45,328 bases of DNA, taken from Saccoglossus kowalevskii. Lineage: Eukaryota > Hemichordata > Enteropneusta > Harrimaniidae. Location of the stretch: NCBI RefSeq assembly GCF_000003605.2, contig NW_003150755.1:547610-592937 (forward strand), given 5' to 3'. The notes under the pieces are model-generated. The model was given only the letters and a program-made list of their open reading frames with translations, ran no database searches and was not told where the DNA came from. The position numbers and the translations under genes are program-made. Shown piece after piece: positions 59 through 17,137 of this stretch; position 1 is the stretch's first letter, and each line of letters opens with the position of its first letter.

Positions 59-122
59 CTTGCATTTGTTGTATAACGGCATTGCTAAACCTACTACCAT
101 ACGAATCGAACACCACTTCACC
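59..122 (-). CDS. receptor exon 7 (end of Venus-flytrap domain)
   Basis: The acceptor ends ATATTACAG and the donor reads CAAG|GTAAGTG. The exon encodes GEVVFDSYGSRFSNAVIQQM plus Q and one extra base (phase 1). This corresponds to the GABA-B1 segment with the VVFDASGSR motif, just before the lobe I return strand. It is the most 3' exon visible; the gene continues off the left edge. Confidence 0.85.
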
Positions 123-15100: not shown

Positions 15101-17137
15101 GACTTTGACCGTTGTGTTTTCTCCGCGGAAGCTTGTGGCCCCCTCCGCTTACCCTTGGCAACACATAGCCATGTTAGGACATACACATGGCAACGGATCT
15201 AATGTCCATTCTGATTGAAGATATTTTACGTAACACATAGTCTTGAATAAATTACTTGCGTGATACGCCATCTTGTACAAATTAGCATTCATTAACAAGA
15301 AATAGTTAGGTTGTGTCAGTTTCTCTAAGATCACAACCACAGTCTAAAGGCCCGATACTTATATATGTATATTATATGATCATTGTGATATATATGATAA
15401 TATATTGTTTTTTTCCGATGTCATATACGAAAAGATTGTTTTTTAACAATTTTAACTAATATAATATGTCAGCAGTTTCCTACACACTAACATTGAACAA
15501 ATTGAATCATGTGTTCAAATGGTCTAAAAATAACTATTAGGGCTATTGTCACAAGATCACGGTCACGTCAATTAAATCGAGTCTGAAACCGGCGTTTTAC
15601 GGACTATAGCCCTATGACGCATACGTATAACGAGACTTTATTTCAAAATTAATTATTACGGGAAATAACAGTGCAAAAACCTACCAATCCCGTGAAACAA
15701 CTGTTTAAATGCTCAGATAACTTAGACTTCAAAATAAATATTAAAACAAAAAGTACACGATTGTATTCTTCTATATCATATTTCTATAGTTACATATCTA
15801 GTAACTATGGCAATATTTTAATGGCATTTGAGTATATGATCATGTAGTCAATATGACTTGATCTATTTTAATTGTATCACTACGCACGTTATAAATTGAT
15901 TATATTGTTTGAAAATTGTGGGCAAAATATAGTTTACTGCCTCTGGCCTTAAAGTGTATTCCGTGTAATGATATTAACATTGATCGCATGAACCCATCGA
16001 ATCAAACACGAACATGCAGACGCTGCGGAGGTATTGAGTACATATACTGCAAATTACTGCCTCACATTTAGCAAGTTAATTCTTCAACTTAGTGTTCGCA
16101 TTTATCTTATCATATTCAATTGCTTGCACCGTTATATCCAAACCACCACGGACGTACGAAGAGCATTATTTAATTTGAGACTAAACACTTCATTTTTATT
16201 TTTACTTGTCACTTCCAATTTTCTCATAGAGTGTCAAAACACCGCCGAATGCAAGCATGCTACAACGTAAGATATCAGTAACGATGTAATGTATCTAGTA
16301 TATTACATATATAACATTTCACAAAACATTCACCCATGTATACTGTTTGAAATAATAGTTTATACTGTGTGTCCGCATTTATTCAGTCATGTTTAATTGC
16401 AATATATAAAAACCCTCAAGGACGCACGGAGATAATAATCTCATTCTTATTTCATTAAACTAATCCATCCTTATTTCCTGATAGAATAGTTGTAACTGGA
16501 AGTTATCAGGCTTCGGCAAGATACTCATATTTCTCGTTCAAAAAAATTAAGGCATATACCGTCAAGGTTTGTCCCATAAACTGTCAAACGGTGCACAAAT
16601 GCTTTCCCGAAAGCACTTCAGAAGTACAGTAAATAACAATAACGTCGAGATGTGAAACCTCTTCAGTCACTACACAGCACAACCAAATCGATGAACCTTT
16701 CTATAGATGTTTCACGGTAAATTTGTGATTTCGGAAAACCAGGAATTTTATCAACTGTGTATGTTTCTGCAATATCTTGTTTTGCATTCAGAATGTTGTG
16801 ACCGGTGTTGTACTTATACCTTCATTCGACATTTTAATATAATATTTAAATATAATTAGATATATAAATGTATGTATATTTATTATATTTTGAACGATTT
16901 TTAGTATAAATAATACTTTACCATAGTCCAGTTCCAAATCATTGTGAGTTCATAGTCAGACAGGATGTCGTCAAATGAGTTGATGTCTTCGATCGCTCGA
17001 TGCACCGATTTCACCAGTTTGTCATATGTGACATCCGAGAACGGCATGAAACCGCCGATATAGAGCGGTGTTTTGGCATTTGTTAGAATCGCAGTGAAAC
17101 ACATCAGTTCAAAGAACCTGCACCTAGTCCTTGCCAT
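59..17137 (-). CDS. GABA-B-receptor-like class C GPCR, 5' part of gene (7 exons, incomplete)
   Basis: Joining exons 16922-17137, 3614-3751, 3309-3479, 1763-1930, 1219-1431, 443-685 and 59-122 on the minus strand gives an open frame of 404 codons plus one base. All junctions are GT-AG; six are phase 0 and the last donor is phase 1. The product is a short signal peptide followed by a type I periplasmic-binding (Venus-flytrap) ectodomain. Family landmarks in order are LYIGGFMPF, DILSDYELTMIW, FGWTRVAIIYQ, DARIIIGLFYQD, KYVWMLVGWY and VVFDSYGSR. These match GABA-B1 better than GABA-B2. The family forms obligate dimers at neuronal membranes and signals through Gi/o. The seven-transmembrane domain, coiled coil and stop codon are not in the window; they should lie beyond base 1. 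The cysteine of the usual Cys-Asp-Pro-Gly motif and its partner are absent, so GABA binding is doubtful. I assign no symbol because this looks like a divergent paralogue. Confidence 0.9.
443..685 (-). CDS. receptor exon 6
   Basis: This 81-codon exon has acceptor TTTCCTTAG and donor ACC|GTAAGT, both phase 0. It begins YPTAEQIEFYRH and contains CDSYGYDQIVTMALTLN, which aligns with the family's helix ending AYDAIWALALALN. HEFTYSDAEMARIF and TFVGLT match the family's LEDFNYNNQTI and FEGVSG region. In GABA-B1 the residue just before this helix is a ligand-contacting Glu; here the equivalent position is Cys or Asp. Confidence 0.88.
836..925. repeat. low-complexity CGCAA and CCCAA tract in intron 5
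   Basis: A run of degenerate CGCAA pentamers (836-866) is followed by CA- and CCCAA-rich sequence to about 925. It lies in the intron between receptor exons 5 and 6. It looks like an old microsatellite with no coding content. Confidence 0.6.
1219..1431 (-). CDS. receptor exon 5
   Basis: This 71-codon, phase 0 exon has acceptor TTTGTTCTCAG and donor GTG|GTAAGA. It starts AYSQGYYGDKYVWMLVGWY, a very strong match to the GABA-B family's KYVWFLIGWY strand. It retains the Trp of Gly-Trp-Tyr that lines the ligand pocket. The Cys in ERTCTSEQ and the Cys near the end of exon 4 correspond to the second conserved disulphide of GABA-B1 and are both kept. Confidence 0.92.
1700..1716. promoter_or_regulatory. 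CTCF-like motif, copy 1
   Basis: The sequence TCGCTAGATGGCGCTAC fits the bilaterian CTCF core (YAG-R-KGGCGC). It sits in the intron just downstream of receptor exon 4. The same stretch is unchanged in the diverged duplicate at 37822-37838. Confidence 0.35.
1763..1930 (-). CDS. receptor exon 4
   Basis: This 56-codon, phase 0 exon has acceptor TTCTGCTAG and donor GAG|GTAATC. It begins LMEEMVVAMRQEGIQ, and DARIIIGLFYQD is the family's lobe II signature. It ends KVLCE, joining to AYSQ of exon 5 as in the family's KVFCEVYKE. A decayed copy of this exon lies at 37859-38026 on the same strand. Confidence 0.92.
3309..3479 (-). CDS. receptor exon 3
   Basis: This 57-codon, phase 0 exon has acceptor AACTTTCGCAG and donor AGA|GTAAGT. 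It encodes VCIAQFQSNDEHLQRY, then NVFTPARTKLIQLFGWTRVA. The second stretch matches the family's PTRVKLFEKWGWKKIA. The segment equivalent to the GABA-B1 ligand loop SYGSSSPAL reads CIAQFQSND, and the His of THPSA is replaced by the Tyr of IYPNS. Confidence 0.9.
3614..3751 (-). CDS. receptor exon 2
   Basis: This 46-codon, phase 0 exon has acceptor TTTGTCACAG and donor CAG|GTGAGT. It begins AEPAPGLKLIYDFVYNKPP, the counterpart of the CDPGQATKYLYELLYNDP motif, but with Ala in place of Cys. The later segment VMAWGPIYSKVGEVV replaces the family loop MPGCSSVSTLV, so the disulphide partner Cys and the ligand Ser pair are both missing. Confidence 0.88.
10102..10198 (-). mobile_element. tRNA-derived SINE-like element or retroposed tRNA pseudogene with 8-bp target duplication
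   Basis: ACATGTAG at 10102-10109 and 10191-10198 flanks an 81-base insert (10110-10190). Read on the minus strand, the insert has an A-box-like GGCCACTGGGTAGG and a B-box-like AGTTCGAGTC. Its end segments GTGCGT and ACGCAC can pair as an acceptor stem. A loop TTTGTAA would give anticodon TGT (Thr). The T and anticodon stems have mismatches, so it is not a working tRNA. The flanking repeats indicate retroposition. Confidence 0.6.
13819..13832 (+). promoter_or_regulatory. RFX X-box-like motif in receptor intron 1
   Basis: TTTACCATGGCAAC matches the imperfect inverted repeat GTNRCC-(0-3 nt)-RGYAAC recognised by RFX factors at all but the first base. A further half-site, CATGGTAAC, lies about 150 bases to the right. 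This is a motif match only. Confidence 0.3.
15046..15170 (-). other. CpG-rich pocket with a 75-base direct repeat in intron 1
   Basis: This is a short GC-rich island in AT-rich DNA. CTCCGCGGAAGC occurs at 15046 and again at 15121. On the minus strand each copy is preceded by GGTAAGCG, a donor-like sequence, and followed by an A-rich CAC. The minus frame is open across it and encodes a basic stretch (KGKRRGPQASAEKTQRSK). Possible roles are an alternative first exon or promoter of the receptor, or an old insertion. Coding is unproven. Confidence 0.35.
16922..17137 (-). CDS. receptor exon 1 (start codon and signal peptide)
   Basis: The start ATG lies at 17137-17135 in good context (G at -3, G at +4). 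An in-frame TAA 54 bases upstream (17189-17191) supports this as the true start. MARTRCRFFELMCFTAILTN is a plausible signal peptide with a short hydrophobic core. The mature chain then begins at about KTPLYIGGFMPF, the family's first beta strand. The exon is 72 codons, ends ELTMIWNWTM and has donor ATG|GTAAAGT (phase 0). The next exon is 13.2 kb away. Confidence 0.85.

Follow-up and report, generated by a model that had tools for sequence, protein, structure and literature searches.

What does a receptor of the GABA-B type bind when much of the pocket that holds gamma-aminobutyric acid (GABA) has been replaced, and does it bind anything at all? The question is raised by a gene of the acorn worm Saccoglossus kowalevskii, the first seven exons of which lie on the minus strand of a 45,328-nucleotide stretch of DNA (the window: contig NW_003150755.1, C4066 in our genome search, positions 547610-592937). 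An earlier note on this stretch had described these exons as a GABA-B1-like ectodomain that has lost one disulphide and most ligand contacts, belonging either to an intact receptor with a different ligand or to a non-binding partner subunit. On balance we think it likely that the gene encodes a sequence-intact class C receptor of the GABA-B family, with a rebuilt Venus-flytrap pocket, and that its ligand is not GABA but some other molecule. We prefer this reading to that of a non-binding partner because the pocket has changed identically in all 12 members of an acorn-worm and echinoderm family, composed of the window gene, the predicted S. kowalevskii protein P0002 and ten echinoderm proteins; in a non-binding partner or a decaying gene one would expect drift at the pocket positions. 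Of the two possibilities that the note had raised, it is thus the different ligand that we retain, although the changes are old and family-wide and not a loss in one gene.

The ligand pocket and the lobe-1 cysteines

In GABA-B1b, GABA is contacted by W65, S130, S153, H170, E349, Y250 and W278, according to the consulted parts of PMC12499500 (also PMC7411975 and PMC6429233). An alignment of 32 sequences (MAFFT; the 12 family members, with sequences from outside the family and references) shows that the window gene keeps three of these seven contacts, S130, Y250 and W278, and that the other four are changed or absent, so that the loss of "most" contacts claimed by the note applies to four and fails for three. 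Its Ser ligand loop is replaced at Ser153, now Phe124, and retained at Ser130, which is Ser101. The note was right that the pocket His has gone (His170 is Tyr141), that the Glu before the YD helix is replaced (the Glu349 position is occupied by Cys325 according to MAFFT, or by the next residue, Asp326, according to HMMER) and that the Trp of Gly-Trp-Tyr stays (Trp249, at the Trp278 position). The Trp65 position falls in an alignment gap. Three of these positions were located by alignment at the following codons:

3665..3667, minus strand: Ser101 codon, the kept Ser130 contact
3462..3464, minus strand: Phe124 codon, at the Ser153 position
3411..3413, minus strand: Tyr141 codon, at the His170 position

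Seven pocket columns (S130, G151, S153, H170, Y250, W278 and E349) can be compared among the proteins. They read SAFYYWC in 12/12 family members, SGSHYWE in GABA-B1 and PATVDWF in human GABA-B2. When the near-duplicate P0002 is omitted, 119 of the 381 ectodomain columns are invariant among the 11 remaining members, and these include each of the six core pocket columns (P about 8.5e-4). The acorn worm agrees with Acanthaster, Lytechinus, Antedon and Anneissia in 7/7 columns at 52-57% ectodomain identity; four echinoderm pairs within the family also agree in 7/7 (51-60% identity), as do human and fly GABA-B1 (57%). Outside the family, the pair P0019/P0027 agrees in 4/7 at 50% and P0028/P0013 in 5/7 at 57%; human GABA-B2 and the Nematostella protein agree in 4/7, at just 34% identity. 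Three starfish paralogue pairs with 71-73% identity agree in 5, 6 and 5 of six comparable columns, the seventh being a gap of uncertain placement in both rows. Neither Phe124 nor Cys325 occurs in any of the 17 sequences outside the family. Residue 286, Glu or Asp in GABA-B1 and GABA-B2, is Arg in 12/12 members and in 0/17 of the others, two Glandiceps sequences having Lys. In the structures compared, the AlphaFold2 model of P0002 is nearest to closed ectodomains.

The ectodomain of GABA-B1b has two cysteine pairs, 103-129 and 259-293 (GABA-B1b numbering, counted along the PDB sequence), which we take to be disulphides. Both partners of the first, in lobe 1, are missing from the window gene, as the note had observed:

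3749..3751, minus strand: Ala73 codon, at the Cys103 position, one side of the lost lobe-1 pair (alignment of 32)
3668..3670, minus strand: Tyr100 codon, at the Cys129 position, the other side of the pair (alignment)

All 12 family members lack both cysteines, with Tyr at the Cys129 position in every one and Ala, Val or Ser at the Cys103 position. Among the 32 aligned sequences both cysteines are present in four (human and fly GABA-B1, human GABA-B2 and a Nematostella protein), neither in 28 and just one in none, which agrees with the coordinated loss that the note had suspected; the loss is old and family-wide, and not confined to the window gene. The second pair, correctly reported as kept, is Cys230 and Cys270 here and is present in 32/32 sequences. 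A replacement disulphide was considered and rejected: the family-invariant Cys325 has no invariant partner, and the only other cysteines found in all members are 230 and 270. Cys120 is present in the acorn worm and starfish and Cys43 in the urchins, and the crinoids have neither. Four residues ahead of the lost Cys103 position, at residue 69 in exon 1 (window 16933-16931), there is an N-glycosylation sequon, NWT, which was seen in 5/5 family proteins scanned and, by alignment block, in 11/12 (it is absent from P0012).

Gene model, class and descent

The seven-exon reading (17137 to 59, minus strand), an ectodomain of a GABA-B-family receptor, proved real. It has a start codon, a GT donor at all seven exons, an AG acceptor at exons 2-7 and compatible reading phases, and its joined 404 residues match the solved structures of GABA-B1 (HMMER, E 1.2e-50, 176 bits) and GABA-B2 (E 9.8e-46, 160 bits), as well as Pfam ANF_receptor (138 bits), which places a Venus-flytrap ectodomain here. 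The exons, with the grounds for each in brackets, are:

16922..17137, minus strand: exon 1, residues 1-72, start codon, first ectodomain strand and helix (open reading frame, GT donor)
3614..3751, minus strand: exon 2, residues 73-118, starting at the Ala that replaces Cys103 and containing GPIYSKVG (AG/GT, phase 0, alignment)
3309..3479, minus strand: exon 3, residues 119-175, with a loop IAQF that replaces SYGSSS, and QIYP that replaces RTHP (AG/GT, alignment)
1763..1930, minus strand: exon 4, residues 176-231, DARIIIGLFYQD with the kept Tyr250 position (Tyr221), and KVLCE (Cys230) (AG/GT, alignment)
1219..1431, minus strand: exon 5, residues 232-302, GWY (Trp249, the Trp278 position), Cys270 and the RGFE stretch (Arg286) (AG/GT, alignment)
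443..685, minus strand: exon 6, residues 303-383, GACDSYGYDQ, in which two invariant residues, Cys325 and Asp326, fall at the Glu349 position (AG/GT, alignment)
59..122, minus strand: exon 7, residues 384-404 plus one base, EVVFDSYGSR (AG/GT sites, full model)

Exon 1 carries a stretch that resembles a signal peptide by eye, is 86% identical to P0002 residues 1-74 and is followed by an intron of 13 kb. Exons 8-16 adjoin the window on the left, on the same contig (loci L009 and L010), in a genome of 572 Mb and 4,830 contigs. The leftward extension that the note had proposed gives a complete predicted model of 16 exons and 777 residues, with GT-AG introns throughout and its sole stop at the end, so the DNA holds none of the 3' stops that would have marked a pseudogene. 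By sequence, the window gene is an intact receptor. P0002, which carries a seven-helix domain, matches the model at 719/751 residues (96% identity), and no other locus rivals the window gene among the 60 P0002 matches scored in the genome; elsewhere the best of these 60 are a match on C611 that covers the final 52 residues at 74% and a decayed exon 4 copy at 62%. P0002 stops before exon 16, which a script selected by its splice site and residue composition. The choice is supported by the resulting tail, since exons 15-16 carry a heptad pattern, LLLKLLAL, whose register is that of ILLKLLLL in starfish and LLLKRLLL in urchin. Shuffled tails reached the real score in 117/500 cases for the acorn worm and in 7/500 and 8/500 for two starfish, and the pattern is absent from both crinoid tails examined; a C-terminal coiled coil is accordingly given here as predicted.

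The GABA-B subfamily is recognized by the absence of a cysteine-rich domain between flytrap and helices. In the full model the class C seven-helix domain occupies exons 9-15, and the link that precedes it (residues 404-448) has about 43 residues with one Cys (412) and no cysteine-rich domain; the predicted product therefore has the sequence marks of this subfamily of class C receptors. Its seven-helix part, scored on P0002, is closest to GABA-B2 (203 bits), followed by GABA-B1 (160), GPR156 (91) and mGlu (59 or less). The acorn worm keeps all four G-protein contact positions of GABA-B2, R577, I581, F582 and L686, whose functions, like that of the inter-subunit latch, are taken from the consulted part of PMC12499500; in the family R577 and I581 are kept in 12/12 and L686 in 11/12.

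The ten echinoderm proteins (three from starfish, five from urchins, of which three are from Diadema antillarum, and two from crinoids) have 51-57% identity to the window peptide, and support for the family as a single clade is 100%. Within it the acorn-worm pair branches as sister to the echinoderms, the echinoderm node receiving 94% in the full-length tree, 93% in the seven-helix tree and only 56% in the ectodomain tree, as expected if a single gene has been passed down in both phyla since they diverged. In all three trees, which include only three human and fly reference sequences and are rooted on GABA-B1 arbitrarily for display, the family and GABA-B2 are split from GABA-B1 (with P0019 and P0027) at 100%. 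The label GABA-B1-like therefore survives for the ectodomain score only; by descent the gene is on the GABA-B2 side. A mosaic of a GABA-B1 ectodomain and GABA-B2 helices was ruled out, as the ectodomain and seven-helix trees agree. The family lies outside the pair formed by human GABA-B2 and Nematostella P0018, which is supported at 91% (full-length), 92% (ectodomain) and 33% (seven-helix).

The first protein search gave 19 matches, 18 from hemichordates and echinoderms and one from Nematostella, and the second, at a threshold of E 1e-30, gave 24, all from hemichordates and echinoderms. Neither search, both of which need shared five-residue words, returned a vertebrate or insect GABA-B subunit, and restriction of the family to hemichordates and echinoderms is not established. 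With the same word limit, and hence with no proof of absence, no member surfaced from brittle star, sea cucumber or Glandiceps.

Ligand, partners and rival readings

How does this receptor compare with the known ones? GABA-B2 (human GABBR2, fly dGB2) is the nearest known subunit by tree, seven-helix score and G-protein contacts. In contrast, the two lobe-1 cysteines are present in human GABA-B2 and missing from the acorn worm, Ser130 and Tyr250 are present in the acorn worm and missing from human GABA-B2, and the lobes of fly GABA-B2 stay open (PMC12499500, consulted part), whereas the acorn-worm family has a conserved pocket. With GABA-B1 (human GABBR1, fly dGB1) the gene shares the flytrap fold, Ser130, Tyr250, Trp278, the second cysteine pair and a slightly higher ectodomain score, but it lacks Trp65, Ser153, His170, Glu349 and the Cys103-Cys129 pair, and its seven-helix part is GABA-B2-like. 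Other echinoderm and Glandiceps GABA-B-like proteins (P0001, P0013-P0017, P0020-P0026 and P0028) belong to the same wider clade (96-98% support) and have neither lobe-1 cysteine, and two of them outside the family, P0015 and P0026, also carry QIYP; unlike the family, they have variable pocket residues, and none has IAQF, GACDSY or Arg at 286. One of them, P0013 of Glandiceps talaboti (1260 aa), appears by eye to contain one complete GABA-B-like receptor and, after it, part of another; the annotation may have fused two tandem genes.

We propose that a small ligand, probably one resembling an amino acid, would be held by the kept Ser130, Tyr250 and Trp278 positions, and that Phe124, Tyr141, Cys325/Asp326 and the change from an acidic residue to Arg at 286 would set a new specificity. 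The ligand would close both lobes, as in GABA-B1, and the GABA-B2-like seven-helix part would in turn switch on a G protein, probably of the Gi/o type. The receptor may couple to the G protein by itself; it could work as a homodimer, or else pair with a different subunit and supply the coupling, with the predicted coiled coil perhaps joining the two.

Several observations weigh against this proposal. GABA-B1 has the same residue at three of the six core pocket positions, the Ser130 position is Ser in 31/32 sequences, Tyr stands at the His170 position in 7/17 sequences outside the family, and the starfish paralogue pair P0016/P0021 (73% identity) keeps 6/6 comparable columns; the pocket residues may thus be conserved for reasons of fold. 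The AlphaFold2 comparison consists of one protein and one control. In the window gene itself residue 135 is Gln, against Pro in the other 31 of the 32 aligned sequences, and residue 176 is Leu, against Glu in ten of the other 11 members and Gly in one, departures that could reflect relaxed constraint or sequencing error. Coupling could also differ, since the F582 position is Phe in 4/12 members and Tyr in 8/12, the lysines of the second intracellular loop are not conserved in the family, and at latch position 5.60, where GABA-B subunits have a conserved Glu that the acorn worm shares, 10/10 echinoderm members have Ser.

Could the protein be instead a non-binding partner like GABA-B2, with an open ectodomain that binds nothing, serving another GABA-B-like subunit in trafficking and coupling? 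We regard this as unlikely, though it deserves serious attention. Its placement with GABA-B2 in all three trees, its seven-helix part and its predicted coiled coil would suit such a role, and matches to other GABA-B-like genes on many contigs are possible partners. However, the core pocket columns are invariant in 11/11 members, against 4/7 between human GABA-B2 and Nematostella (a more distant pair), Ser130 and Tyr250 are retained here and absent from human GABA-B2, and the predicted P0002 structure resembles closed ectodomains, whereas the fly GABA-B2 lobes are described as open in both states in the part of PMC12499500 consulted. That GABA or a close analogue is still bound through the changed pocket seems improbable. 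Trp65 has no counterpart, and Ser153 and His170 have become Phe and Tyr; in GABA-B1 the Trp65Ala mutation abolished agonist activation and Ser153 mutations alter ligand affinity, although His170Ala merely lowered activation (PMC7411975, consulted part). In its favour, three contacts are kept, Asp326 could replace Glu349, and GABA neurons have been shown in Saccoglossus (PMC10508912, consulted part); a separate GABA receptor is to be expected from that finding.

The two remaining explanations have little to recommend them. A decaying duplicate or pseudogene would suit Gln135, Leu176 and the presence in the window of a decayed exon 4 copy with stops (37859-38026), but we reject it as highly improbable, as 16 exons with GT-AG introns run without an internal stop and the product is 96% identical to a predicted protein of the same species and 51-57% identical to ten of echinoderms. 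Hardly any credence can be given to the idea that faulty annotation explains the missing Cys motif and that an alternative exon 2, the other outcome that the note had named as refuting and one for which the 13 kb intron 1 would leave room, carries it: tblastn of the window with the exon-2 region of 32 proteins gave exon 1, exon 2 and otherwise only matches at E 0.02 or weaker, none of them such an exon, and 12/12 members lack both cysteines.

If the gene does encode a receptor for another ligand, what would follow? In the textbook GABA-B receptor, binding (GABA-B1) and coupling (GABA-B2) are divided between two subunits. A bolder and distinctly tentative version of our proposal is that this hemichordate-echinoderm receptor stands outside that division of labour, as a coupling-branch subunit with its own rebuilt pocket, an unpaired invariant Cys, Arg for an acidic residue and a transmitter conserved from acorn worms to feather stars. 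A coupling-branch receptor with a private invariant pocket would be a testable candidate for a new transmitter system in two groups closely related to the chordates, the acorn worms and the echinoderms, and it bears on whether one GABA-B-type subunit can do both binding and coupling. The family also shows that the lobe-1 cysteine pair of human GABA-B1, human GABA-B2 and fly GABA-B1 can disappear from receptors that remain conserved through long periods of evolution.

Previous work reported 29 GABA-B-like receptors in Saccoglossus, interpreted as kept ancestral diversity (PMC10133484, consulted part), and the window gene is likely one of them or a counterpart from a closely related species. The consulted part of that paper describes the expansion and not an orthologue family, pocket residues or lost cysteines, and the word echinoderm is absent from its main text. 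A tree of 31 species in PMC12499500 includes Echinodermata, as far as its consulted part goes; in PMC6267866, on starfish sensory organs, GABA and aminobutyric do not occur in the main text. Among the ranked literature listings we found nothing on the 12-member family.

Other features of the window and genome

The decayed second copy of exon 4 (37859-38026, minus strand) lies upstream of the gene; it has two stops in the tblastn match and three in the slightly longer genome-search match. No other exon of the gene matched a second time within the window or the 20 kb on each flank. At C611:59145-59294 (locus L033) the last coding part of the gene occurs again, interrupted by one stop; this copy and P0002 residues 700-751 are 74% identical. 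Between 38000 and 42000 the window has raised G+C (0.41, then 0.52) and several overlapping open reading frames that look retroelement-like by eye; seven pieces of those at 39-42 kb gave no Pfam match. The window also holds three tandem arrays:

18503-18942: 34-base unit, 12.9 copies
43187-43255: ATA, 23 copies
43277-43869: 78-base unit, 7.6 copies, 99% matches, open in two minus-strand frames

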